Assembly: GCF_000442515.1 (NCBI RefSeq)
Contig: NZ_AQPH01000033.1
Location: 1 to 35,816 of the forward strand
Origin: Magnetospirillum fulvum MGU-K5
GTDB lineage: Bacteria; Pseudomonadota; Alphaproteobacteria; Rhodospirillales; Magnetospirillaceae
Direction of reading: 5' to 3'
DNA length: 35,816 nt
Shown here: positions 22,729 to 35,726 of the stretch, in pieces
Position numbering within the stretch: position 1 is the stretch's first letter
Layout: each line of letters starts with the position of its first letter
Notes under the pieces: model-generated
Databases searched by the model: none
Told to the model about the DNA's origin: nothing
Seen by the model: the letters and a program-made list of their open reading frames with translations, nothing else
Made by a program: the position numbers and the translations under genes

Positions 22729-22902
22729 ATGAACAGGGATCGCATCATCGGCTCGGCCAAGCAGGTCAAAGGCAACATCGAGCAAGTGACCGGACGGATC
22801 TTCGGCGACGCCAAGCTAACCGCCGAAGGCAAGATCGACGAGAGCGAAGGAAAGCTTCAGAACAGCATCGGCAGCCTGAAGGATTCCGTGAAAAGTGAGT
22901 AG
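22729..22902 (+). CDS. CsbD-like stress protein
   Basis: This short, charged protein has 57 residues. It begins MNRDRIIGSAKQVKGNIEQVTGRIFGD and continues AKLTAEGKIDESEGKLQNSIGSLKDSVK, the standard CsbD-family pattern of helices with the repeated GK/GR spacing. CsbD proteins are general-stress induced; the molecular function is not known. ATG 22729 is preceded by AAAAGG. A region of about 170 bp rich in A and T lies upstream; I looked for the alphaproteobacterial general-stress promoter (GGAAC, about 17 bases, CGTT) and did not see a good match. Downstream lie two hairpins. Confidence 0.92.
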   Translation: MNRDRIIGSAKQVKGNIEQVTGRIFGDAKLTAEGKIDESEGKLQNSIGSLKDSVKSE

Positions 22903-22937
22903 ACGGAACGCCTTGCTGGCATGACGCAATCAAATTT

Positions 22938-23009
22938 CACGTGGGAAATGCCCCCTCGATTTCCCCGTGATTTACCCCATGCCAACGGCCGTCCGTTCGT
23001 TGGCATGGG
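22938..23009 (+). terminator. Two hairpins downstream of csbD-like gene
   Basis: The first pairs CACGTGGGAAAT (22938-22949) with ATTTCCCCGTG (22959-22969), with one base bulged. The second pairs CCCATGCCAAC (22976-22986) with GTTGGCATGGG (22999-23009), 11 bp perfect, with a 12-base loop. Neither has a strong T-run. The second is probably the transcript end. The rest of 22903-23129 holds no gene I can support. Confidence 0.5.
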
Positions 23010-23129
23010 TGCTTGCCCTTTCCGCTCAACGCGTCCGGATTCAATCCGGGTTCCACTGGGCAGGAGGGAAAGCAAGAGCGGCCCACACCAGATGGGCCAG
23101 CCGGACCTTCGACAGACAAGGATCACGCC

Positions 23130-23612
23130 ATGACCGCTTTGCCTCTGCGCGCTTTGCCGCTGGCTCCGCTTGCCCTCGTCCTGGCAAGCGGCCTGCTGGT
23201 CGCGTCGTGTGCCCCGGTTGCCTCGACGCCGCAATTGGTCCAATCCAACACGCCCACCGTGACCTACCGCTACACCGCCGATCAGGAACTGGTCCAGGCC
23301 AATCAGAGCGCGGCCTCCTACTGCAACCAATATCAAGCGACGCCGCGGACGAAGACGTTTTCGACCGAAACGGATGGCAGCAAGATCGTTGTATTCGAAT
23401 GTGTCCGGGTCGCGGCTGCCCCGCCGCCCCCAGTTCCGGCCCCCTACAACCCCAATCTGGTCTACAGCGTTCGTTCGGACCAGGAGTTGCTCGACGCCTC
23501 GCGCAACGCCCAGAGCTATTGCCTGAGCAATGGGGCGCAGCAGGTCTCGTCCACGATCAGCACCAACCCCAACGGCATCCGGACCGTCACCTTCCAGTGC
23601 CTGCCGCGTTAG
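23130..23612 (+). CDS. Lipoprotein with two tandem cysteine-containing repeats
   Basis: I know no named family for this 160-residue protein. A lipoprotein signal peptide is clear: hydrophobic residues 11-24 and a lipobox VASC with Cys27 as the lipidated residue. The mature part holds two related units, about residues 46-92 and 110-160. Each begins Y.YTADQEL or YSVRSDQEL, has A.SYC near the middle and ends in VFEC or TFQC, so the Cys positions are conserved and could form a disulfide in each. A Pro-rich spacer (AAPPPPVPAP) separates them. AAGGA lies before ATG 23130. The protein is probably anchored in the outer membrane or periplasmic face. It is convergent with prsR, with a shared hairpin between. 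Confidence 0.8.
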   Translation: MTALPLRALPLAPLALVLASGLLVASCAPVASTPQLVQSNTPTVTYRYTADQELVQANQSAASYCNQYQATPRTKTFSTETDGSKIVVFECVRVAAAPPPPVPAPYNPNLVYSVRSDQELLDASRNAQSYCLSNGAQQVSSTISTNPNGIRTVTFQCLPR

Positions 23613-23627
23613 CACCTTTGGGGCCCC

Positions 23628-23657
23628 GAGCCGATTCCATTCCGATGGAATCGGCTC
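23628..23657. terminator. Hairpin between the lipoprotein gene and prsR
   Basis: GAGCCGATTCCAT and ATGGAATCGGCTC pair perfectly over 13 bp with a four-base loop. It sits between two convergent genes and touches the prsR stop. T-runs are absent on both sides; it probably serves both transcripts. Confidence 0.65.
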
Positions 23658-25051
23658 TACACGTCGAGTCGTGGCCCCCGTGTGATCCGCAGCGTCTTCA
23701 TCAGGGTGTAAAGGGTGGGACGGCTGATGCCGAGCACCCGCGACGCTTCCTGGATATTGTTATCGGTAATCGCCAGCGTGCGGTTAAGCGCCCGGCGCTC
23801 GGCCTCTTCCCGCACCTGACGCAGCGTCGGCAGACGCAGGGCGTCGGCCGATTCGCCCCCGTCGCACAGATCCATATCTTCTACCGTAATATAGAGCCGG
23901 TCGGCCAAGACGACCGCGCGCTTCAGCCGGTTTTGCAATTCCCGCACATTGCCGGGCCAGGAATAGGTCTCGATCCTGGCCAGCGTCTCGGGCGCAAAAC
24001 CCTTGATCGGCCGCCTCAGCCGTCGGCTCATCGTCGTCAGCAGGAACGAGGCGATCAGCGCCGCGTCGCCTGGGCGGTCGCGCAGAGGCGGAATCGCCAA
24101 CCCAACCTCGTTCAGACGATAAAACAGATCCTCGCGGAACGATCCGGCCTGCATCATCGTGCGCAGATTGCGGTTGGTGGCGGCAATGACGCGGACATCG
24201 ACCGGCACGGTCTTGCGTCCCCCCACCCGCTCGATCTGCTTTTCTTGAAGGAAACGCAAAATCTTGACCTGAAGCGCCAGCGGCATGTCGCCGATCTCGT
24301 CCAGAAACAAGGTGCCGCCGCTGGCCCGTTCGATCTGACCGACCGCCTGGGCAAAAGCGCCGGTGAACGCCCCGCGTTCATGACCGAACAATTCGCTTTC
24401 CAACAATGCTTCGGGAATCGCCGCGCAATTGATCGCGACAAAGGGGCGGTCGCGGCGGTCGCTCCAGGCATGGATGGCGCGGGCCAGCACGTCCTTGCCG
24501 GTGCCGCTCTCTCCGGTGATCAGCACCCCCACCTCGACATCGGCGACCCGGCGCGCCATGTGGCAGACCTTCAGCATCTGAGGCGAGGCGGCCAGCAATC
24601 CGTCAAATCCGCTGTCACCGGCCAGGCCTTCGCGCCGGTCGTCGCGCTCTGCCTCCAGCCGATAGCTGTTCCAGCCCCGCTCGACGATGACGCGAAGGAC
24701 GTCGCTATCAACCGGCTTGGCATAGAAATCATAGGCTCCCCCGCCGATCGCATCCTGGGCGTTGCGGCGGTCCTCGGTGCCGGAGGCGACGATCACCTTG
24801 GTCAGGGGCTGGATCGTCATGATCTCGCGCAGGGTCGCCACCCCTTCCCCGGCGCTGTCGCAGTCGGGGGGCAGGCCGAGATCAAGCACCACCAGCGGCG
24901 GTTCGCGCCTGCGGAACTGAGCAATCGCTTCGGAGCGGTCCCCGGCGAAATACAGTTCGTAATCGGACAAGGCCCAGCGAAGCTGTGCCCGCATCCCTTC
25001 GTCATCTTCGACGACCAGGATGGCGGGCGTTTCGGGCAGGATCGACGACAT
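23657..25051 (-). CDS. prsR: PEP-CTERM/exosortase-system response regulator PrsR (sigma-54 activator)
   Basis: This 464-residue response regulator is NtrC-type. The receiver domain has its acidic pocket at VVEDDEG and its phospho-acceptor Asp57 in LVVLDLGLPP. The AAA+ domain shows Walker A GESGTGKD, the sigma-54 contact loop GAFTGA, and Walker B GGTLFLDEIGDMP. The C-terminal Fis-type HTH is NNIQEASRVLGISRPTLYTLMKTL. The sequence, its pairing with a PrsK-like kinase and the exosortase genes nearby identify it as PrsR, which activates sigma-54 promoters of exopolysaccharide and PEP-CTERM genes in known cases. It follows prsK by 18 bp and is co-transcribed. Sigma-54-like promoters at 26663 and 35797 are its likely targets. 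Confidence 0.93.
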   Translation of the reverse strand: MSSILPETPAILVVEDDEGMRAQLRWALSDYELYFAGDRSEAIAQFRRREPPLVVLDLGLPPDCDSAGEGVATLREIMTIQPLTKVIVASGTEDRRNAQDAIGGGAYDFYAKPVDSDVLRVIVERGWNSYRLEAERDDRREGLAGDSGFDGLLAASPQMLKVCHMARRVADVEVGVLITGESGTGKDVLARAIHAWSDRRDRPFVAINCAAIPEALLESELFGHERGAFTGAFAQAVGQIERASGGTLFLDEIGDMPLALQVKILRFLQEKQIERVGGRKTVPVDVRVIAATNRNLRTMMQAGSFREDLFYRLNEVGLAIPPLRDRPGDAALIASFLLTTMSRRLRRPIKGFAPETLARIETYSWPGNVRELQNRLKRAVVLADRLYITVEDMDLCDGGESADALRLPTLRQVREEAERRALNRTLAITDNNIQEASRVLGISRPTLYTLMKTLRITRGPRLDV

Positions 25052-25069
25052 CGCGACGCGCTCCCTTTT

Positions 25070-26350
25070 TTACACCGAGAGACCGAAGCGTTCGGCCGAT
25101 CCGTCCCGCTGGATGCCGCGCCGGACCACGCCGGGACGTGTCGGCAGACGGATGCGGACAAGGGTGCCGCGGCCCAGTTCACTTTCGACATCAAGGCAGC
25201 CGTTCATTTCGCGCACCAGCCACGCCGCCTGAAATGCGCCGATGCCCGATCCGCCGGGCTTGCTGGTCTGAAGCGGCCGGAACAGGCGGTCGCGAATGAA
25301 ATCGGCCGACATCCCCGGCCCGCTATCGGCAATCTCGACCACGCCGTCAGCACCGACGGCAACCCGGACGGTTCCATCGGGACCAGCGGCATCCCAGGCA
25401 TTGCCGATCAGGTGCCCCAGCACCGAGACCATCCGGTCGGCCTGTCCCAACACCATCACGACGGGGCTTTCGGTGGAAAAGATCACCGCTCGCCCCGGCC
25501 GCCAGCCCGCGGCGGCGGTGGCGGCGGTCTCGACAAGATTAAAGCGGCGCGGACGCAGCACCCGCCCGCCCCGATCCAGGCGACTTTGCATGGCACGCAA
25601 CCGCGCCACCGCCGCGCCGACGGTCATCAGCATGTCGCGCTGGAAGAGGGGGTCGTCGCCGAAACGCTCGGCGTTTTGCAGCATCAACGACATCTGCCCC
25701 AGCACGTTCTTGACGTCGTGACGGATGAAGGCGGAGCGACGGCTGTAATCCGACAGGGACCGCACATCGCTTAATTCCTGCGACACCCGCGCTTCGGCAA
25801 GATAGCTGGCGGCCAGGGTCGCCAGCGCCATCATTCCCTCTACCGACTGCGACGGAGCCAGACACAGCATCGCGAATCCTTCGGTGCCGCCCTGGTGGAT
25901 CAGCGGCACCACCACCCACCCCTCGCCAAAGCCACCCATCCACGGCGGCAGGATCGGCGCGGCCGCGTCCTCGTGGTCCCATCCGCATTCGCCGACCTCG
26001 ACGATCCGTCCGGTCTCGGCCAGAAAACGCGACAGATCGGCCTGGGCCGACACATGCGACAACGGCCCGGCCATTCCCACCGATGCCATCGGCAGAAACG
26101 CCCCGGTCGAGGGATTGCGCACCCAGATCGCACCGAACTCGCTGGCGGCGGCATCGACCAGCGCCCGCAACAACCGTTGCCCCAGGCTGCCCTCCGCGCC
26201 GGGAGCGGCAATGGTGGCGACGAAAGCGGCCAGCAGCGATCGGGCGTCATCGCCCGGACCGAACCGCCGCCGGACGCCGTCGCGCAATGCGGCGACCGCT
26301 AGCCCGACCCGGGTACTGATCGAGTCCGGATGGTTTCTCATCCCTGTCAT
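25070..26350 (-). CDS. prsK: PrsK-like histidine kinase, short form without membrane domain
   Basis: This 426-residue kinase partners PrsR. It begins with a soluble region of about 45 residues, then a GAF-like domain (residues 55-185), then the dimerisation/phospho-acceptor segment SAFIRHDVKNVLGQMSLMLQNAERFGDDPLFQRDM with His211. That HDVKN...LMLQNAER pattern is characteristic of PrsK. The ATPase domain follows with LIGNAWDA (N-box), IADSGPGM and GSGIGAFQAAWLVREMNG. Canonical PrsK proteins are larger (more than 600 residues) with an N-terminal multi-helix membrane region, which is absent here; I see no hydrophobic segment long enough to span the membrane. ATG 26350 has GGAGG nine bases upstream. 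This kinase therefore probably senses a cytosolic signal. Confidence 0.88.
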   Translation of the reverse strand: MTGMRNHPDSISTRVGLAVAALRDGVRRRFGPGDDARSLLAAFVATIAAPGAEGSLGQRLLRALVDAAASEFGAIWVRNPSTGAFLPMASVGMAGPLSHVSAQADLSRFLAETGRIVEVGECGWDHEDAAAPILPPWMGGFGEGWVVVPLIHQGGTEGFAMLCLAPSQSVEGMMALATLAASYLAEARVSQELSDVRSLSDYSRRSAFIRHDVKNVLGQMSLMLQNAERFGDDPLFQRDMLMTVGAAVARLRAMQSRLDRGGRVLRPRRFNLVETAATAAAGWRPGRAVIFSTESPVVMVLGQADRMVSVLGHLIGNAWDAAGPDGTVRVAVGADGVVEIADSGPGMSADFIRDRLFRPLQTSKPGGSGIGAFQAAWLVREMNGCLDVESELGRGTLVRIRLPTRPGVVRRGIQRDGSAERFGLSV

Positions 26351-26477
26351 CCACCGAATCCTCCCGCCGAGGAAGCGACTGATCTGATCGCACCAACCGA
26401 AACATAGAATGGAAGGCTGGCGAGAGCAGACTCAGTCTGAAACCTTATCGACTCCGGCATAAAGATAGCTTTTTTCC

Positions 26478-26500
26478 ATAAATGCCCCTCTTTCATTTAT
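26478..26500. promoter_or_regulatory. Inverted repeat 1, candidate PrsR enhancer site
   Basis: ATAAATG, nine bases, CATTTAT. It is about 165-185 bp upstream of the sigma-54-like promoter at 26663, a normal distance for an NtrC-class enhancer. It shares the AAATG/CATTT arms with the repeat at 26528. Confidence 0.45.
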
Positions 26501-26527
26501 AGATTAATATCTACAAACCGAAACAAC

Positions 26528-26547
26528 ATCATTTCGTAACAAATGAT
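26528..26547. promoter_or_regulatory. Inverted repeat 2, candidate PrsR enhancer site
   Basis: ATCATTT, CGTAAC, AAATGAT: a perfect 7-bp inverted repeat with six-base spacer, 115-135 bp upstream of the sigma-54-like promoter. Paired with the repeat 30 bp further upstream, it may be one of two binding sites for PrsR dimers. Confidence 0.5.
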
Positions 26548-26662
26548 TTAATAAAATTACGCGAATAAAGGCTCAACTTACCTGTCTTTTTATTTTACAC
26601 TGCCCAAGCAGACCGGATGGGATAGGCCTGTTTTACGCACCCGGCGCCGTCATCCCCGGCCA

Positions 26663-26678
26663 TGGCACGATTCATGCT
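26663..26678 (+). promoter_or_regulatory. Sigma-54 (-24/-12) promoter before vanZ-exosortase operon
   Basis: TGGCACG-ATTC-ATGCT matches the sigma-54 consensus TGGCACG, four bases, TTGCW in all defined positions but one (A for the first T of TTGC). Transcription would begin near 26690, about 35 bp before the GTG start of vanZ. A sigma-54 activator, PrsR, is encoded divergently just beyond. Confidence 0.8.
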
Positions 26679-26724
26679 GATGGCTTCTCACGCCCCACGG
26701 GCTGAAACGCGGAGGAATTCTGGC

Positions 26725-27129
26725 GTGACGATGGCACAAGCTTCGATCCGGTCGATTGCGGTGCGCCTGCTGGCCTGGATCGGGCTGATCGGGCTGGCGC
26801 TGCTGTCATGGTTGCCGGGGGACGAGATGATCCGCAGCGGACTGGATGGCCGGATCGAACATGTCATGGCCTATGCCGGAATCAGCACTCTGGTCGCCCT
26901 GGCCTATGCCCGTCGGATCGGGCTCAAGGCGGTGGCCGCCCTTCTCATCCTGTATGCCGGAATGCTGGAGATCGGTCAGATTTTCGCCTTTGGCCGCCAT
27001 GCCGCGCTTTGGGACGCGTTCGCCAGCGGCACCGGAATTCTGATCGGAACCGCTCTCCACCCCCTTATCCGCAGCGGAGCGCGGCGCCGGCGCCCCTTGC
27101 ACCATTTCCTGTCCTCGCTCACCGACTGA
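26725..27129 (+). CDS. VanZ-family membrane protein
   Basis: This is an integral inner-membrane protein of 134 residues with about four hydrophobic helices. The sequence LLSWLPGDEMIRSGLDGRIEHVMAYAGISTLVALAY carries the VanZ-family pattern (P-x-x-x-x, then H-hydrophobic-x-Y/F), and LLILYAGMLEIGQIFAFGRHAALWDAFASGTGILIG completes it with the conserved E and D. VanZ homologues are common in exosortase/PEP-CTERM and polysaccharide loci; their function is unknown. GTG 26725 is chosen because GGAGGA lies eight bases upstream. Other in-frame starts are ATG 26731 and an ATG at 26662, but the latter lies in the sigma-54 promoter and would not be transcribed. It is the first gene of the exosortase operon. 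Confidence 0.85.
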   Translation: MTMAQASIRSIAVRLLAWIGLIGLALLSWLPGDEMIRSGLDGRIEHVMAYAGISTLVALAYARRIGLKAVAALLILYAGMLEIGQIFAFGRHAALWDAFASGTGILIGTALHPLIRSGARRRRPLHHFLSSLTD

Positions 27130-27186: not shown

Positions 27187-28752
27187 ATGGATTTCCGTAC
27201 CAGATTGCCGCGTGTCATCGGCATCGTCGTCGTCTTAGCCGCCGCCGGATTCGTCTTCCATGACGCGCTGGGTCTGATCTTCACCAGTTGGGAGCAGCCG
27301 GAATACAGCTATGGCTATCTGGTCCTGCCGCTGGCGATCCTGCTGTTCGTCAACCGCCTGAACGGCCAAGACCTCGTCATCCGGGGATCGTGGGGAGGCG
27401 TCGCCCTGGTGGGCGCATCGCTTTTGCTTGAATTGGGCTGCGAACTGTCGAACGTCAGGGGCGTCCAGCCCTATTCGGTGCTGCTGTTTCTGTATGGCGG
27501 CTTCGTCACCTTGTTCGGCTGGCGCAAATGCGTCGTCTTCGCCGTTCCGCTGGCTTATCTGATTTTCGCGGTCCCGCTGCCGCGCTTCATCTTTGCCGAG
27601 ATTTCGGTTCAGCTTCAGTTGATCTCGACCGATTTGGGCGGGGCGATTCTTCAGGCGCTCGGCTATTCGGTCTATTCGGAAGGCAACGTGATCGATCTCG
27701 GCGGCTACCGCCTCCAGGTGGCCGAGGCATGCAGCGGGTTGCGCTATCTCTTTCCCCTGCTGAGTTTCAGCGTCCTGGTCGCCTTTCTGCTGAAGTCCCG
27801 GCGCTGGATCCAGATCTTCATCGTCTTGTCGTCACCGCCGATCACCGTCCTGATGAACAGTCTGCGGATCGCCATCGCCGGAATCGCCGTCAACGAAGCG
27901 GGACCGGCAATGGCCGAGGGCTTCATTCACGCCTTCGAAGGATGGGTGATTTTCATCGGCTGCCTTCTGGTTCTGCTGCTCGAACTCTGGCTGCTGCGCC
28001 TGCTCGGATGCCGGATCGAGATTGAGTCCTCGGCCCTGTCGCTGTCGCGTCGGCCGGTCTTTAGCGTAACCGTCCAATCGTGGCAGCGGACAATCGCCGC
28101 CACCGCGTTGCTGGCGCTTGCCGTAGGAACCGATATCGCCCTTGCCCTGTTTCCGCCCGACCGCCCCGGTCCGGTCCGGCTGCAAACCAAGCTGGAATAT
28201 TTTCCCACCGCGATCGGAACCTGGCGCGGGACCCGCCAAACCATCCCAGCCGAAACGATCGAGACGCTGCAACTCGACGATTATGTCCTGACCGATTATG
28301 TCGGCGACGACGGTGCCACGGTCAGTCTCCATGTCGCTTATTACGGCCACCAGGATAGCACCGCCGCCTATCACTCGCCGCGAATCTGCATTCCCGGCGG
28401 TGGCTGGAAGATTGTCTCGCTGACGCGCCGAATCATCACGGTCAATGGCGCGGCGTTCCCGGTCAATCTCGTCCTCATTCAAAACGGGACGGCCCGCCAC
28501 CTGCTCTATTACTGGTTCGACGAGCAGGGCGAGCGTCTGACCGAGGATTACGCGGTCAAGCTGCATATTCTGGGCAATGCCTTGCGCCTGCGTCCGACCA
28601 ACGGCGCGCTGATCCGGGTGCTGACCCCGCTTGACCCCGCCGAGACGGTCGACACCGCCGCGGCCCGGCTGGGACGGTTTTTAGACGATGCCGTCCCGAT
28701 TTTGCAGGGCGCGATGGCCGAAGCCGCTCCATCCCCGGCATGGGGACGGTGA
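27187..28752 (+). CDS. xrt: Exosortase fused to EpsI domain (XrtD-like)
   Basis: This 521-residue inner-membrane protein is a putative transpeptidase that processes C-terminal sorting signals. The N-terminal 290 residues form the exosortase, with about eight membrane helices. The catalytic Cys182 lies in VAEACSGLRYLFPLLSF, Arg227 in VLMNSLRIAIAG and His248 in GFIHAFEGWVIF. After a further helix (about 303-322), residues 335-510 form an EpsI-type domain, with IGTWRG, YVLTDYVGDDGATVSLHVAYYGHQDSTAAYHSPRICIPGGGW. In many systems exosortase and EpsI are separate. The fused form is typical of the XrtD (VPLPA-CTERM) group; that subtype is inferred. The downstream glycosyltransferase starts four bases after its stop. 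Confidence 0.92.
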   Translation: MDFRTRLPRVIGIVVVLAAAGFVFHDALGLIFTSWEQPEYSYGYLVLPLAILLFVNRLNGQDLVIRGSWGGVALVGASLLLELGCELSNVRGVQPYSVLLFLYGGFVTLFGWRKCVVFAVPLAYLIFAVPLPRFIFAEISVQLQLISTDLGGAILQALGYSVYSEGNVIDLGGYRLQVAEACSGLRYLFPLLSFSVLVAFLLKSRRWIQIFIVLSSPPITVLMNSLRIAIAGIAVNEAGPAMAEGFIHAFEGWVIFIGCLLVLLLELWLLRLLGCRIEIESSALSLSRRPVFSVTVQSWQRTIAATALLALAVGTDIALALFPPDRPGPVRLQTKLEYFPTAIGTWRGTRQTIPAETIETLQLDDYVLTDYVGDDGATVSLHVAYYGHQDSTAAYHSPRICIPGGGWKIVSLTRRIITVNGAAFPVNLVLIQNGTARHLLYYWFDEQGERLTEDYAVKLHILGNALRLRPTNGALIRVLTPLDPAETVDTAAARLGRFLDDAVPILQGAMAEAAPSPAWGR

Positions 28753-28756
28753 GATC

Positions 28757-29924
28757 ATGACTCAGCAAAGCCCACTCGCTCCCCGGCATCCCGACCCGAT
28801 CCGCACGATCTGCTGCATCCATCAGGGCTATGAATTGTACGGCTCGGATCGGCTGTTCATCCAGTGCGTCGCGATCCTGCGCCGCCTCCACCCCGAAGCG
28901 GCGATCGAAATCGTGTTGCCCAAACCCGGCCCGATCGTCGATCCGTTACGGATGGAGGGGGTCAGCATCGTTTTCGACGATATCTGGGTGCTGACGAAAA
29001 AAAGACATCGCGCAGAAATTGCTGTTCCGGTTACCGCATCTGATCGGCTGCATCCGCGCGGCAAGACGGCGGATCGCCGACAGCGATCTCACCTATATCA
29101 GCACCTCGGTCATCGCCGATTACCTCCTTGCCGCCCGGACCAGCCCGGCGGCGTGCCTGTGCCACGTCCATGAAAGCCCGGACGGTCTGGCCCTGCTGGC
29201 GGTGCGGGCGCTGCTGCACTGGGCCGCCATTCCGATGATCTTCAATTCCGCCGCCACCCAGACCCAATTTTCCCTGCCCGAAGCGATCCCCCAGGCGGTG
29301 GTACTCAATTCATGCAAGACGCCGGAGAAGACCCGCCCGGTCGAGTATGACGGCCTTGCCCCCCTGAAAGTGCTGATGCTCGGCCGGATCAACAGTTGGA
29401 AAGGGCAAGACCTGCTGGTCGAAGCGGTGGCGGCGATGCGGATCGAGGCGCGGGCCCGGATCGAGATTCGCATCGTCGGCGGCACGTTCGACAATGCCCG
29501 CCACGATCTCGCTCTGCTCGACCTGATCCGCCGGTTCGAGCTTGAGTCCTATATCGAGGTCCTGGGCTTCGATCCCGATCCCACCCCACATTATCAATGG
29601 TGTGACATCCTGGTGGTCCCGTCGCGCAAGCCCGAACCATTCGGGCTGGTCGCGATCGAAGCGTTCTCGCACGGCCGCGCCGTGATCGCCGCCGATCATG
29701 GCGGCCTGACCGAGATCGTAACGCCGGATCGCGACGGATGGCGCTTTGAGCCGAACTCGGCCGCCGATCTGGCGCGATATCTGGAAATGGCGGTTGCCTC
29801 GCCCTTTGCTGTCCGCACGATGGGGGAGACGGCGCGGATAACCCATGCCCAACGCTTCACCGAAACCATTTTCGAACGGAGCTTCGCCGAAGCGCTGCAT
29901 CCCGCCGATCCGACCGCGCCATGA
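28757..29924 (+). pseudogene. GT4-type glycosyltransferase, reading frame broken in an A7 run
   Basis: Two adjoining frames together encode one GT-B glycosyltransferase of about 389 residues. The first frame (from ATG 28757, MTQQSPLAPRHPDPIRTI) gives the N-terminal domain, including IHQGYELYGSDRLF, up to VLTKK. The second frame (+1) continues KKDIAQKLLFRLPHLIG through the C-terminal domain, with LKVLMLGRINSWKGQDLLVEAV and the E-x7-E motif EPFGLVAIEA to the stop at 29924. The junction is a run of seven A at 28997-29003; six would restore one frame. It may be a natural inactivation, phase variation or slippage, or a sequencing error. ATGA overlap couples it to the flippase. The sugar donor and acceptor are unknown. 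Confidence 0.85.
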
Positions 29925-31219
29925 AATCCGACAAGTTCGCGATGTCGGTCTCGACCTTTACCCGGATCGGAACCGGGTTGGTAATCTTTGTCCTGCTCGC
30001 CCGCTATCTCGGACCGGGACCGTTCGGCGTGTTCGCGGCGGCGATGGTCTATGCCACCCTGCTGGGGCTGGTCGCCGATTACGGTCTGGGGACCTATGCC
30101 CTGTGCGAGGCGGGAGCCCACCAGGGACGCGGCGCGACCATCGTGATGCAGGCCCTGATGGTGAAGCTGATCACCACCGGCCTTGTCACCCTGGGCGGTC
30201 TGGTCGCCCTGGCGGTCGTGGCTCCGGTGCACGATACCGTGATCGTCATCGTCGCGGTCTATATCGGATTGATGGCGACCTCGTTCGCCGATCTGTGTTT
30301 CGTCACCGTCCGCGCCGTCGGACGCTACGATGTCGAGGCGCGAACAGTGGTGGCGACCAGCATCGTTTCGGTCGCCGCGATCGCCTGGGTGACCGTCGCC
30401 AGCGACAGCATCGCCGCCGCCGCTTTGTGCTTCATGGTCACCCGTCTGTTTTATCTGGCGACCAGTTGGATCGTGCTGCGGCCGTTTCTGGCAATTGCGG
30501 CGGTCTGGCCGGTCCGGCGGGCGGACCTGCTGCGGATCATGCGGCAGGCTTCGCCTTATGCCATCGACGGCTTGCTGGTCAACCTGTCCAACCAGATTGA
30601 TGTCGTGATGGTCAGCCTGTTGCTTAGTCACGTCGAGATCGGGCTGTATCAGGCCGGAGCGAAGCTGTTGCAGGGGGTCGCCCCGGTCTCCGCCATTCTG
30701 GCGATGGTCTATCTGCCCAAGTTGGCCGAGGCCCATCAGAGCGGCGATCTGGGTCGGCGAAACCAGTTGGCCGCAAAGCTCAATCTTGAGTTCGTCGGCC
30801 TCGCCACCATCGGCTTTTTCGGTTTCATGGTGTTCGGGCCGCTGTGGACGATCCATGTCTACGGCCCGGAATTCAGCCCGCTGATCCCGCTGTGGCCCGG
30901 GCTGTCCTGCTTCATCCTGTTCCGCTTCACCGCCTCGGCCTATGGGATCGAGCTGACCGCGCTTGGCGAAATGCGCTACCGGATCGGCACCTACATCCTG
31001 GTCATCGGCGCGGTGGTGATCGGCTCGCTGATCGCGCTGCCCCGCTATGGGGTGGCGGCGGCACCGTGGATTCTGGCCGGATCGGGTCTGATCCTGCTGC
31101 TGGTCTATGGATTCATCTCGGCACGCTATATGGGCAGTCGCCGGATCGTCGCGTACAGCCTGGCCTGGTCGCTGCTATTGCTGGCGTCGGCTCTGCTGTT
31201 CGCGGCGGAACGTGGCTGA
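29921..31219 (+). CDS. Wzx-like polysaccharide flippase (MVF/MOP superfamily)
   Basis: This 432-residue inner-membrane protein has about 12 hydrophobic helices, typical of polysaccharide export flippases (Polysacc_synt). The N-terminus FTRIGTGLVIFVLLARYLGPGPFGVFAAAMVY is diagnostic: it has the RYLGPxxFG motif of the Wzx/RfbX group. QASPYAIDGLLVNLSNQIDVVMVSLLL begins the second half. It should flip lipid-linked oligosaccharide units to the periplasm. Its ATG overlaps the glycosyltransferase stop as ATGA (29921-29924), so expression depends on translation through the broken upstream gene. The FkbM gene follows after 50 bp. Confidence 0.92.
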   Translation: MKSDKFAMSVSTFTRIGTGLVIFVLLARYLGPGPFGVFAAAMVYATLLGLVADYGLGTYALCEAGAHQGRGATIVMQALMVKLITTGLVTLGGLVALAVVAPVHDTVIVIVAVYIGLMATSFADLCFVTVRAVGRYDVEARTVVATSIVSVAAIAWVTVASDSIAAAALCFMVTRLFYLATSWIVLRPFLAIAAVWPVRRADLLRIMRQASPYAIDGLLVNLSNQIDVVMVSLLLSHVEIGLYQAGAKLLQGVAPVSAILAMVYLPKLAEAHQSGDLGRRNQLAAKLNLEFVGLATIGFFGFMVFGPLWTIHVYGPEFSPLIPLWPGLSCFILFRFTASAYGIELTALGEMRYRIGTYILVIGAVVIGSLIALPRYGVAAAPWILAGSGLILLLVYGFISARYMGSRRIVAYSLAWSLLLLASALLFAAERG

Positions 31220-31269
31220 TTTCGGGTCCGTGCGCCCCGCTTCCGGGGCTTCGGCAGGAGGAGAGCACG

Positions 31270-32100
31270 ATGATCGAGCCTCAAACCCCAACCGTTGCCA
31301 CCACCCTGAAAATCCTGGCCCTCTGGGGGCGCCACCTGTTCCGCGCCGCGACCGCGCGCCCCAGGCGCTTTGTCGCGATCCTGCCGCCATTACCGGGGGT
31401 CCAGATCCTGCTGGATCTTCACACCGGGCGGCGGCTGGAACTCCGGCTGAAGACCGTCAACGATTGGTACACGGCCAAACAGGTCTTCCTCGACAACGAT
31501 TACGGCTTCGAAAAGCTGGCGCGGCGGGCCGATCTCAGCCGCCGATACCGCGAGATCGTCGAGTCCGGCCACGATCCGCTGATCCTCGATTGCGGCGGCA
31601 ATATCGGGCTGGCGGCGCGCTTTTTTGCCGAGACTTTTCCAGATGCGGAGATCGTCAGCCTCGAACCCGATCGCAGCAATCTCGACCTGGCAAAACGCAA
31701 TATCGCCGACAAAGCGGTGACCCTGATCGAGGCCGGTATCGCCAATCACGACGGGGCGGGCACGCTGATCGACCCCGGACTGGGCAACAACGCCTATCGC
31801 GTCCGCACGCAATCCGATGGTCCGGTGCGGCTGATCTCGGTCAACACGCTGCTAGCCGAGGCCGCCGCAAAATCTCAGGTGCCATTCCTGATCAAGATCG
31901 ATATCGAGGGATTCGAATCCGAGCTGTTCGCCCGGAACACCGAGTGGGTCCAGTCCTTTCCGATCATCATCATCGAACTGCATGATTGGATGTTCCCCAA
32001 GACGGCCAACGCCGCCAACTTCCTAAAAACCGTCTCAGAGCTGAACCGGGATTTTGTCTTTCACGGCGAGAACGTGTTCAGCATCGCCAACGACATCTAA
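31270..32100 (+). CDS. FkbM-family methyltransferase
   Basis: This 276-residue SAM-dependent methyltransferase is of the FkbM type. SAM motif I is LILDCGGNIGLAARFFAETFP (about residues 98-118), the post-I acidic loop is EIVSLEPDRSNLDL, and the C-terminal FkbM signature is PFLIKIDIEGFESELF. In polysaccharide loci FkbM proteins usually methylate a sugar hydroxyl; the acceptor is not known. ATG 31270 has AGGAGGAGAG in front. The last 66 bases (32035-32100) overlap the 3' end of the convergent O-antigen-ligase-like gene, so the two coding regions share DNA. This is the last gene of the plus-strand operon. Confidence 0.9.
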   Translation: MIEPQTPTVATTLKILALWGRHLFRAATARPRRFVAILPPLPGVQILLDLHTGRRLELRLKTVNDWYTAKQVFLDNDYGFEKLARRADLSRRYREIVESGHDPLILDCGGNIGLAARFFAETFPDAEIVSLEPDRSNLDLAKRNIADKAVTLIEAGIANHDGAGTLIDPGLGNNAYRVRTQSDGPVRLISVNTLLAEAAAKSQVPFLIKIDIEGFESELFARNTEWVQSFPIIIIELHDWMFPKTANAANFLKTVSELNRDFVFHGENVFSIANDI

Positions 32101-33342
32101 ACGACGGCGGCGGCGCGACAGGGACAGACCACAGCCGAACATCAACCCCATTGTCGCGCCGGTTTCGCCGTTATTGATCAACCCGGCGACGGTCGGGGTC
32201 GAGATCACCGCGATCAGAACCAGACCGCCCATGATCCTGGCATAAAGGCGGGTCTCCGGCGTCGGGTCGGGACAGGAATCCGACAGACGCCGCGAGTCGC
32301 GCACCAGCAACAGAATCTGAATCAGATACAGCCCGATTCCGAACAGGCCACCGCGGACCAGCAGGAAGGCGAATCCGTTGTGAAATACCACCGTCGGGAT
32401 CAGATAATACTGGCCCAGACGGTCGAGAACGAGCTTCGCCTGGGTGTGCAGCCCGGTCCCAAACAGCAGCGATCCGGGAAAATCGGCTTCAAGCAGGGCG
32501 TAGGCGTGGGTTGCCTCGTGCCCGCGCCAATATTGATTGATCTCTCTGGGGTCGCTGCGGCGGATCGGCAACACCTCGCGCACGGAATCCGGAGAGACGG
32601 AATCGATTTCCGACACCAGGGATTCGCCCAGCAAGGCGGGCAACGCCGGCGTCGTCACCAAAGCGGCGACGATCAACCCGGTCAAAGCCAGCAGTCGCAG
32701 ACGTCGCAGCGGGATCAGCCCGGCAATCACCATCCCGATCAAGGCGGTGTTGAGAAAGACCGAGCGAGACGAGGACAGAATCGCGGCAAACAGAATCATC
32801 GCGACGGCCCCCAGCGCGGCATGACGGCGCAGCGGCACTATCCGCTTGTCTAAATAGAAATAAATCCCGGCACAGGCCGCGATGCACCAGATGAAATATC
32901 CCCGGCCGATCACCGAGCGGACTTCCTCGCGCGCGTCCATATTGGCATCGGGGGAGTAAAAATAGATCGCGGCATATTTGACCGCCGCGACAACCCCGGC
33001 GATCAGGGCGGCCACCAGCACCGTCCGCGCGCCGTTCCCTCGGGGGCAAAAAGCCATCCCGAACACGATGTAAATCGGAATGCGCAGGAGAAAGGCGATC
33101 GACTTCACCGCGATCCAGCCGACCTCTCCGGCGGCGATTGTGATCGCCAGCGCCGGAATCACGATCAGGCACAGCGGCAGAGCGGACGAAATCCCCGAAT
33201 AATCGACCCCGCGCCGAAACAGCATCGCCGCCACCAGAACGACGGTTGTCAGCACGATGTGAATGTCCGCCGTCACGAAGCAGGCGCTGAGAAAAAAGGC
33301 GACCCACACCCACAACAGCGGTGCGGGAGCGGTGGGGGTCAC
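32035..33342 (-). CDS. O-antigen ligase/polymerase-like membrane protein
   Basis: This 435-residue integral membrane protein has about ten or more hydrophobic helices. A large periplasmic loop (about residues 240-320) contains RGHEATHAYALLEADFPGSLLFGTGLHTQ, followed by HNGFAFLLVRGGLFGIGLYLIQ, the pattern of the Wzy_C/O-antigen ligase superfamily, in which the loop His and Gly-rich motif HN.f...l...G recur. It probably polymerises or ligates polysaccharide repeat units. The start is GTG 33342 and forms GTGA with the prsT stop, so it is translationally coupled to prsT. Its 3' end overlaps the FkbM gene on the other strand by 66 bp. Polymerase and ligase roles cannot be told apart. Confidence 0.85.
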   Translation of the reverse strand: MTPTAPAPLLWVWVAFFLSACFVTADIHIVLTTVVLVAAMLFRRGVDYSGISSALPLCLIVIPALAITIAAGEVGWIAVKSIAFLLRIPIYIVFGMAFCPRGNGARTVLVAALIAGVVAAVKYAAIYFYSPDANMDAREEVRSVIGRGYFIWCIAACAGIYFYLDKRIVPLRRHAALGAVAMILFAAILSSSRSVFLNTALIGMVIAGLIPLRRLRLLALTGLIVAALVTTPALPALLGESLVSEIDSVSPDSVREVLPIRRSDPREINQYWRGHEATHAYALLEADFPGSLLFGTGLHTQAKLVLDRLGQYYLIPTVVFHNGFAFLLVRGGLFGIGLYLIQILLLVRDSRRLSDSCPDPTPETRLYARIMGGLVLIAVISTPTVAGLINNGETGATMGLMFGCGLSLSRRRRRLDVVGDAEHVLAVKDKIPVQL

Positions 33343-35726
33343 AACGAGGCCAACAACTGGCGGGCCTCCTCGATACCGGGAAAGGACTGGCCCGGCCCGG
33401 TCGCGGCCCGCAGTTCAAGCTTGGCCTGTTCCTTCATGTTGGCCCGGATCAAGGCTGCGCCGTAATGATAGCGCATCTGGGGCGAAACCGGACCCACCGC
33501 GACGGCCCGGCGCAACAGCGAGACCGCCTCGGGCACGTTGCCCAGGCGGTAATGAACCCATCCCAACGTGTCGATCCATGCGGGATCGCTCGCCCCCTGG
33601 AAACGTTCGGCGACGCGCAGGGCAAGGCGAAGCGCCTCGGGATCGGCATATTGGAAATCGGCGATCAAGGCGGCCAGATTGTTCGCCGCCGTATCCAGGC
33701 TGGGATTACGCTCCAGCACCTGGGTATAGACGGCAATCGCCTCGCCCGGCCGCCCCAACTGGCTCAGGCTATCGGCCAGAACCAGGGCAATGCGGTCATT
33801 GCCCGGCAACGCCGCCGCGCCCTGGCGCAGGACGTCGATGGCCTGATCGCCCCGGTGATCGTTGAGGCGGAGTTGCGCCAGGTTGAGATAGGGCTCGGGA
33901 CGTCCACCGCCCGCCCCCACCGCTTTCTCGAATTCCGCCTCGGCTGCCTGACGCTTACCCAGGGCCAGATCGGTTTCGCCCCGCAGATTGGCGACGAAGG
34001 AACTCTTGCTGTTCAGGCTGTCCAGATAGGTCGCCGCCGCCGCGAGACGGTCAAGTCCGGCATAGGCGCGCACCAGGGCAGCCAGGGCGCGCTCGCCTAA
34101 CGGCGTGGCGGGATCGGCCGTCGCCACCTGGGCAAAGCGGGCGATGGCAGATTCGGGTTTGCCGGTGGCCGCTTCGACCTCGCCGCGCAGGAACGCGGCG
34201 GGCAAGGTCTGCCCGGCCAGACCGTCAAGACGGGCAATCGCCATTTCGGCGGTCTTCCAATCCTGGGTGGTAATCGCGGTCCGGGCCAGACTTTCCCACC
34301 CGACCGGATAGTCAGGATTAGTCCGGGTCACCCGATCCAGCGTTGCCCGGGCGCGAGCGGTCTCTCCCTTGGCGCTGAGGATCTGGGCCAGCCGCACCTG
34401 GGCCGCGTTATCCTGAGGCACGATATCGACCAACTGCGCCTGGACCTCGGCGGCGCGGTCGAGTGAGCCCAGGCGCAACAGCGATTCGGCCAGCAATTGC
34501 TTTGCTTCGGGCGAGCGCGGACGGTCGCGCAGAACCTCGTTCAGATCGGATACCGCATTCTGATATCGCCCTTGGTCAAAGTTCAGCCCGGCCCGCATGA
34601 ACAGAGCGTCGGGATGAGTCGGATTTTTTTCCAGAATCATCGCGATCAGCTTTTCTGTGACAGCGCGATTTCCCTGGGCGAACTGAATCCGGGCCAGCGA
34701 GGCCCGCGCGTTCAGCCCCTGCGGCTCGAACTTCTCTGTCGTCGCCACCTTCTCCAACAGATGAACCGCCCGGTCGGGCGCGTCATGGGCGATGTAGAGA
34801 TCGGCCAACCAGAAATACAATTCGGACTGATCCGGACTCGCCGCGATATAGCGGGTGATCTCGGCCTCGGCGGCTTCGATCCCGCGATTGCGGTCCAGGA
34901 ACGCGATCAGATCCTGCTTCATCCCCCAGGATTCCGGCGCGGCAGCGATTCCTTCGCGCCACACCGCCTCGGCCGCATCGATCCGACCGGCCTTCAGATA
35001 GATGTCGGCCAGATCGGCGCGATAAACCCGCTCGGCGGGCAGCACCCGGAACAGGCTGTGAAAGGCGGCATCGACCTTTTGAAGGTCGTTGGCCTTGCGG
35101 GCCATGTCGATCTTCATCAGCAACAGGGCGATTTCATCGGGATTGCGGGCGATCCCGGAATCCAGGGTCGCCGCCGCCGAGGCCGCTTCGCCCCGCGCCA
35201 CCTGAAGAGCGGTCAGAACCGAGATCGCCCCAACATTGGCCGGATCGCGCGCCAGGGCAAAGCGGGCTTCACGTTCGCTTTCGACCGGATCGTTCCGTCT
35301 CATCTTCTGAGCGGCGCGCAGCGCGTGGGCATCGGCATTATCGGGCTGGACGGACAGAATGGTATCCACCTTGCGCTCCGACGCCTCGATCTGTTCGGCG
35401 GCGAGATGGTAGCGGGCGATTTTCAGCAAGGCGGGGACGAACGTCCTGTCCTGGACCTCGGCCCGCGAGAAATTGGCGATGGCATTGGTCACATCGCCCT
35501 GCGCCTCGTCGATCAGCCCGAGATGGTAATAGACGTCGGGATCGGTGGGATTGATCTTCGCCGCGTTCTTGAACTCGACCCGGGCCAGATCGAACTTCCG
35601 GTCAAGGATGTAACCGGCCCCGCGGGCTTTGTATTTCGCCTCCCGCTGTTGAGCGTTGTCGCAACCCCCCAGGACCAGGACGGCGATCGTCAGCGCAGAG
35701 GCTAAGGTGACGCTCTTCGAGACCAT
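33339..35726 (-). CDS. prsT: PEP-CTERM/exosortase-system TPR-repeat lipoprotein PrsT
   Basis: This 795-residue lipoprotein has a short signal peptide ending in the lipobox LGGC (Cys22 from Met 35726, within the sequence LTIAVLVLGGCDN). The rest is a long array of tetratricopeptide repeats covering nearly the whole mature protein, visible as recurrent [A/L]...L....G....A...[F/Y/L] phrases such as DLARVEFKNAAKINPTDPDVYYHLGLIDEAQGD and the C-terminal WIDTLGWVHYRLGNVPEAVSLLRRAV. Such proteins accompany exosortase loci and are named PrsT; they are thought to scaffold polysaccharide export. Other possible starts are ATG 35744 and TTG 35801; the latter overlaps the -12 element and is unlikely. A sigma-54 promoter lies 71 bp upstream. 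Confidence 0.9.
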   Translation of the reverse strand: MVSKSVTLASALTIAVLVLGGCDNAQQREAKYKARGAGYILDRKFDLARVEFKNAAKINPTDPDVYYHLGLIDEAQGDVTNAIANFSRAEVQDRTFVPALLKIARYHLAAEQIEASERKVDTILSVQPDNADAHALRAAQKMRRNDPVESEREARFALARDPANVGAISVLTALQVARGEAASAAATLDSGIARNPDEIALLLMKIDMARKANDLQKVDAAFHSLFRVLPAERVYRADLADIYLKAGRIDAAEAVWREGIAAAPESWGMKQDLIAFLDRNRGIEAAEAEITRYIAASPDQSELYFWLADLYIAHDAPDRAVHLLEKVATTEKFEPQGLNARASLARIQFAQGNRAVTEKLIAMILEKNPTHPDALFMRAGLNFDQGRYQNAVSDLNEVLRDRPRSPEAKQLLAESLLRLGSLDRAAEVQAQLVDIVPQDNAAQVRLAQILSAKGETARARATLDRVTRTNPDYPVGWESLARTAITTQDWKTAEMAIARLDGLAGQTLPAAFLRGEVEAATGKPESAIARFAQVATADPATPLGERALAALVRAYAGLDRLAAAATYLDSLNSKSSFVANLRGETDLALGKRQAAEAEFEKAVGAGGGRPEPYLNLAQLRLNDHRGDQAIDVLRQGAAALPGNDRIALVLADSLSQLGRPGEAIAVYTQVLERNPSLDTAANNLAALIADFQYADPEALRLALRVAERFQGASDPAWIDTLGWVHYRLGNVPEAVSLLRRAVAVGPVSPQMRYHYGAALIRANMKEQAKLELRAATGPGQSFPGIEEARQLLASL

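Follow-up and report, generated by a model that had tools for sequence, protein, structure and literature searches.

A predicted PrsR/sigma-54 promoter ahead of the exosortase XrtD operon of Magnetospirillum fulvum MGU-K5

According to the accessible sections of Haft et al. (2006, PMC1569441), proteobacterial PEP-CTERM genes are preceded by a 17-nt motif with TTTACA at its end, followed by a spacer averaging 62.8 nt and a -24/-12 element, and the response regulator PrsR was proposed as the activator of these promoters. The same sections mention a few additional sites before other genes, unnamed in section 7, and call the stimulus of the kinase PrsK obscure. In Aquincola tertiaricarbonis, whose genome encodes PrsK and PrsR, the accessible part of a second paper reports that the PEP-CTERM gene pepA, located near prsT, is RpoN1-dependent and has a mapped -24/-12 start (PMC9850573). 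The locus described here shares with the Haft system, as far as the accessible text of PMC1569441 describes it, the 17-nt TTTACA-ending motif, a spacer of about 63 nt, the sigma-54 element and genes for PrsR, PrsK and PrsT. It differs in the position of the element, which here precedes the exosortase operon itself, in having an XrtD-type exosortase and a short kinase, and in the presence of two PrsRs in the genome. A -24/-12 element near prsT and a PrsK/PrsR pair are common to this genome and to Aquincola as described in the accessible part of PMC9850573, whereas the gene concerned is a cargo gene there and an exosortase operon here. We consider it likely (probability about 0.72) that this vanZ-xrtD operon is under the control of PrsR and sigma-54, in one regulon with the cargo genes that is probably served by both PrsRs. 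The PrsR regulon itself is known, and the predicted element before the exosortase operon is a variant of it. Motifs, spacing, distribution and gene families are reported below as read from the sequence.

The window analysed is the whole of contig NZ_AQPH01000033.1 (35,816 nt) from the 3.77-Mb genome of M. fulvum MGU-K5 (GCF_000442515.1). A plus-strand operon opens with a VanZ-like membrane protein (26725..27129; PF04892 21.8 bits, below the cut-off of 30.1), whose likely GTG start at 26725 was picked by eye from a ribosome-binding site (ggagga ahead). It is followed by the exosortase XrtD (27187..28752; TIGR04152 469.3 bits, cut-off 400), which retains the Cys, Arg and His residues conserved without exception in an alignment of six XrtDs. 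The glycosyltransferase that comes next (28752..29924) is a two-frame reading, with the N-terminal half in one frame and the C-terminal half (29019-29924, Glycos_transf_1) in another, the switch falling near 29.0 kb; the split may be real or an assembly error. A flippase-like protein (29921..31219; PF01943 70.5 bits) and an open frame for an FkbM-family methyltransferase (30844..32100; TIGR01444 66 bits at residues 247-380), whose actual start probably lies further inside the frame, are encoded beyond it on the same strand. The minus strand encodes a PrsT-like TPR lipoprotein (33339..35726; TIGR02917 258.6 bits, below the cut-off of 312.2), with a lipoprotein signal recognised by eye at its N-terminus, and a possible Wzy-type polymerase/ligase (32035..33342). 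The label of polymerase given to the latter in a preliminary description of this DNA was overstated, the PF04932 (Wzy_C) match being weak at 25.1 bits (cut-off 31.7). That description also placed prsR between the two promoters discussed below; in fact prsR (23657..25051, minus strand) and an adjoining prsK-like gene (25070..26350, minus strand) occupy 23657-26350, to the left of the vanZ promoter, and point away from it. A minus-strand frame adjoining prsR (22857-23615) matched no Pfam or NCBIfam profile, and an overlapping frame on the plus strand looks by eye like a small lipoprotein, so that the minus-strand frame may be no gene.

Both -24/-12 elements proposed earlier are present with the strict TGGC-N7-[TA]TGC spacing. 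The element of the vanZ-xrtD operon, TGGCACGATTCATGCT, lies at 26663..26678 on the plus strand, with 46 nt between it and the likely vanZ start, and the element before prsT, TGGCCCGCATATTGCG, lies at 35812-35797 on the minus strand, separated by 70 nt from the prsT ATG at 35726. Each has GG at -24 and GC at -12 at the fixed distance, and the genome encodes one rpoN together with the activator PrsR. Scored with a weight matrix built from 80 class-wide sites, own genome left out, they reached 19.6 bits (52nd percentile) and 18.4 bits (32nd percentile), respectively. The bare motif is a different matter. The window contains TGGC-N7-WTGC 6 times against 4.2 ± 2.0 expected, and the genome search suggested in the preliminary description, carried out with TGGCAC-N5-WTGCW, did find the motif but at chance level, with 7 matches in 3.77 Mb and 6 when the pattern was reversed. 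As neither count rises above chance, the motif alone is no evidence, and we ruled it out as such. One of the seven genome matches (locus L001) adjoins an open frame with a NifH-like start by eye.

What raises the vanZ-xrtD promoter above chance, as judged from sequence, is a candidate PrsR box and not the sigma-54 element alone. This 17-nt box, TGTCTTTTTATTTTACA, was missed in the preliminary description; it lies at 26583..26599 on the plus strand, has the motif 1 form TGTC-N7-TTTACA with weak inner positions, and stands 63 nt ahead of the T of TGGC, a spacer inside the range of 32-92 nt and in keeping with the mean of 62.8 nt given in the accessible sections of Haft et al. (PMC1569441). The composite of box and promoter came to light through inspection of genes from a VPLPA-CTERM profile search, which had no match on the window contig; all three such genes, on contigs C13 and C91, carry TGTC-N7-TTTAC and a sigma-54 element. 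The pattern TGTC-N7-TTTAC-N48-78-GGC-N8-TGC, written after all four places had been seen and loose enough to cover every cargo site, including one with CGGC in place of TGGC and another with TTTACT in place of TTTACA, gave 4 matches in the genome against 1 for its reversed control: the vanZ-xrtD operon and three genes with VPLPA-CTERM-like ends. With the span defined as the distance from TGTC to the last TGC, an equally good box at any of the 31 spans from 79 to 109 appeared in 0 of 20,000 sequences obtained by dinucleotide shuffling of the 311-nt intergenic region, and a crude scan of 26300-26800 found no sigma-70-like match. These three results argue against the reading in which the two sigma-54 elements arose by chance and the operon is transcribed from an ordinary promoter; the counts of the bare motif speak for that reading, which we nonetheless regard as very improbable.

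The assignment of the exosortase arm to PrsR now has direct sequence evidence and appears firmer than could be known when it was first proposed. The earlier claim that PrsR acts on both promoters is partly supported, by the sequence at vanZ-xrtD, where box and sigma-54 element form a composite with normal spacing, and by analogy at prsT; it does not extend to this particular PrsR, which the evidence fails to single out. The predicted vanZ-xrtD box has the correct form and position, yet it is weak: it scores 14.3 bits, at about the 1st percentile of the 80 class-wide boxes, and is without [AG]G after TGTC. That score is within the range of the seven other boxes from this genome and the same-genus genome G006 (13.7-22.6 bits).

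The C-terminal TIGR03370 scores of the three cargo genes are 16.4 and 13.7 bits on C13 and 22.5 bits on C91, all under the cut-off of 25.35; their sorting signals were recognised by eye, for which reason we call them VPLPA-CTERM-like. The composite pattern caught all three genes where the profile cut-off admitted 0/3. The first C13 cargo gene (L032:7958-9241) shows a VPLPA-CTERM-like segment twice, in the middle of the protein (23.2 bits) and again at its C-terminus (16.4 bits). No composite was found in the stretch scanned at a second xrtD on C13. The two-arm regulon originally drawn within the window is too narrow, in that the C13 and C91 genes share the composite found at vanZ-xrtD.

The distances between box and promoter fall into clusters. 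At the 70 sites from 15 other genomes of the class with at least two sites each, the span was 82-85, 93-97 or 105-108 in all but one case, the exception being 91. When single-site genomes were included, 81 of the 88 class sites fell in 82-86, 93-97 or 104-108 (outliers 80, 81, 87, 88, 88, 91 and 102), these intervals having been set after the class-wide spans were seen and having a chance share of 15/31 span values. In a sample of 21 sites from elsewhere in the phylum, outside the class (26 rows less five already known), five had spans of 83-86, eleven of 93-96 and two of 106, with 98, 98 and 100 outside, so that 18/21 fell in the intervals. A search for longer spans in 20 site-rich genomes gave 15 rows, comprising six known sites at 106-108, none at 109-112, six at 113-118 and the remaining three at 121, 123 and 135. 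A period fit on the spans had a broad maximum and fixes no period; the claim of helical turns is based on the scarcity of spans between the clusters and on the second sample. Such stepped spans are as predicted for PrsR binding on one face of the helix. The vanZ-xrtD span of 95 belongs to the main class-wide cluster of 93-97, and the cargo sites of the same genome, at 85, lie about one turn closer.

A second regular feature was found within the spacer. NifA- and NtrC-type sigma-54 promoters are bent by IHF and usually have their activator site 80-150 nt away. PrsR promoters resemble them in combining an NtrC-family activator with sigma-54 and, at many sites, in having an IHF-like element, YAANNNNYTGAW, which we take to be a portion of the IHF consensus in reverse. 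They differ in that the PrsR box is closer and its distance stepped by helical turns. The element YAANNNNYTGAW occurs in the spacer of 35 of the 80 class-wide sites, compared with a mean of 1.15 and a largest value of 5 when each spacer was shuffled 500 times; its opposite orientation occurs in 6 of 80 (shuffle mean 1.2). All 35 copies begin 30-33 nt before TGGC at any span, meaning that the element stays with the promoter while the box shifts by turns. A motif-free count by position gave an A-rich block at -31 to -29 and a TTGAAA-like block at -24 to -19, in the same place. Outside the class the element was found at 5 of 21 sites, three at 31-32 and two at 41-42, and in the M. fulvum genome the C91 cargo promoter (L034:7852, minus strand) carries it at 31. 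It is present neither in the vanZ-xrtD spacer, in which respect this promoter departs from the NifA and NtrC type, nor in the other sites listed from this genome and G006. We infer that IHF may bind at this element. The accessible text of PMC1569441, from the open-licence literature, describes neither IHF nor bending, phasing or periodicity, and IHF is not mentioned for the Aquincola system in the accessible part of PMC9850573. The weak box and the spacer without an IHF-like element count against a PrsR-driven vanZ-xrtD promoter.

The strict composite was found in 34 of 385 genomes of the class, at 90 sites, and the reversed control gave one match among the rows listed (G320). For all 88 sites outside the M. 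fulvum genome we took the downstream DNA, which reached at least 4.5 kb at 73 loci and at least 1.5 kb at 81. Sorting-signal ends were flagged automatically in 46 of 90 downstream rows (two sites seen twice); at least four more were recognised by eye (L221, L237, L247 and L275), and two flags are doubtful (L193 and L201). With a profile made from six XrtDs, an exosortase was found downstream on the same strand at 0/88 of these sites. Relatives of XrtD were approached from the other direction, with the best 80 of 515 confirmed loci and 19 regions of genomes of the order (identity at most 44% among the matches listed); as L059 and L083 are the same locus, the 99 loci are 98 distinct ones. The strict pattern had no match in the 80 loci and 19 regions, and the weight matrix detected no composite before xrtD in the 98 distinct loci. 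In 87 of the 99 loci the sequence extends 1 kb or more upstream of the xrtD frame, and operon starts further out would escape this search. Over the 99 loci (1.53 Mb) the matrix returned two composites, L081:15774 and L104:14432, neither of them before xrtD, and 0 for the reversed control. These two PrsR-type composites lie just 3' of prsT-like genes in gammaproteobacterial XrtD loci. A loose pattern matched in 9 of 40 relatives; matches such as those in G002, G016 and G006:C23 have no sorting-signal gene behind them, look like chance and were discarded. A tblastn search with XrtD matched 35 plasmid records, the best among the 20 listed at 37.4%. A predicted box before an exosortase operon is rare within these samples, and since none of these relatives showed a conserved box before an exosortase operon, conservation supplies no footprint.

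At the prsT arm the contig ends 4 nt past the -24 element, and the box region is absent from the sequence; no contig overlapping the last 127 bases of the window was found among the contigs of the genome, although a very short overlap could escape detection. The paralogous operon on C13, a receiver-domain gene followed by prsT, carries a box in which CGTC replaces TGTC, with the element TGGTCTGAATTTTGC at a span of 86, and the prsT operon of G006 has a TGTC box and TGGTCTGATTCTTGC, also at a span of 86. These composites support PrsR control of the window prsT by analogy, and it probably belongs to the PrsR regulon too. Counting against such control, the accessible part of PMC9850573 reports that in A. 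tertiaricarbonis, where pepA needed RpoN1, prsT was seemingly unaffected by loss of rpoN1. The receiver-domain genes between the PrsR-type promoter and prsT (L032:6637-7757 in M. fulvum and L036:14206-15336 in G006) matched no output domain, and both receiver-prsT operons are divergent from a VPLPA-CTERM-like gene with a PrsR box of its own.

The window has a single place matching the PrsR profile, in agreement with the original view of PrsR as its only activator of this kind. Across the genome the profile matches nine places at E<=1e-20, of which two exceed the cut-off and the other seven are weaker activator matches. The second PrsR (C13:27828-29156) scores 634 bits with TIGR02915 and the window copy 617.7 bits (cut-off 502.6). 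Next to the C13 copy are encoded PrsK in full length, PrsT and a cargo protein, with the second XrtD further along C13. The two PrsRs are 67% identical and their DNA-binding ends, NNIQEASRVLGISRPTLYTLMKTLRI and NNIQEASKILGVSRPTLYALMKALRI, nearly the same, from which both probably read the same box; the promoters therefore cannot be assigned to the window PrsR over that of C13. The kinase that had been paired with the window PrsR does adjoin prsR, but at 254.3 bits it is below the PrsK cut-off of 300 (TIGR02916), and its match covers profile positions 310-679 only, alignment with two full-length PrsKs revealing that the N-terminal membrane half is absent. A PrsK relative was present in 33 of 297 genomes of the order, and among the 36 PrsK matches listed all frames had at least 687 aa except that of the window (453 aa) and two of 530 and 264 aa, which begin within 400 bases of a contig start. 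Loss of the membrane sensor, the near-identity of the DNA-binding regions and the presence of a second over-cut-off PrsR beside seven lesser activators favour a reading in which the sigma-54 promoter is real and its activator is the C13 PrsR with its full-length PrsK, or another activator of the genome. On the other hand the window PrsR is complete and adjacent, and its 426-aa kinase retains the conserved HD-KN and ATPase residues; we hold a different activator to be the less probable explanation, although a substantial one.

The short kinase could also mark the locus as a decaying second copy, whose promoter would be a remnant of little activity. The first-percentile box, the glycosyltransferase in two frames and the lack of a VPLPA-CTERM match on the contig are of the kind expected from decay, but XrtD and PrsR are complete and over their cut-offs, XrtD keeps its Cys, Arg and His, the sigma-54 element is of median strength and the glycosyltransferase split may be an assembly error. 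We consider decay unlikely.

In the favoured reading, that PrsR and sigma-54 control the exosortase operon, sigma-54 RNA polymerase would transcribe vanZ-xrtD from 26663-26678. Phosphorylated PrsR would bind the box at 26583-26599 on the DNA face that it uses at its remaining promoters and one helical turn more distant than at the 85-nt cargo spans, and would open the promoter through ATP hydrolysis. The sorting enzyme, the three VPLPA-CTERM-like genes and the receiver-prsT operon would belong to a single regulon on which the two PrsR paralogues probably both act. Binding, phosphorylation, activation and co-regulation are all predictions from sequence. We propose more tentatively, at somewhat short of even odds, a fuller picture in which PrsR promoters have a rigid architecture, with the box on one face at about 83, 95 or 106 nt and in many cases an IHF-like element 30-33 nt before -24. 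The exosortase operon would have been brought under this architecture, and enzyme and cargo on three contigs would make up one regulon with two cross-acting PrsRs, one of which has a kinase lacking the membrane sensor. Such an architecture is not described in the accessible parts of PMC1569441 or PMC9850573. If correct, the stepped spans and the fixed IHF-like element would allow the geometry of PrsR promoters to be predicted exactly, and would sharpen the pattern used to find cargo genes that escape protein profiles.

For the biology of protein sorting, the exosortase and its cargo are probably switched on together by the same regulator. If this is true, enzyme and cargo would be on one switch and the regulon would allow one to ask whether exosortase supply limits sorting, while a natural PrsK without its membrane half would raise the question of which part of PrsK senses the stimulus.
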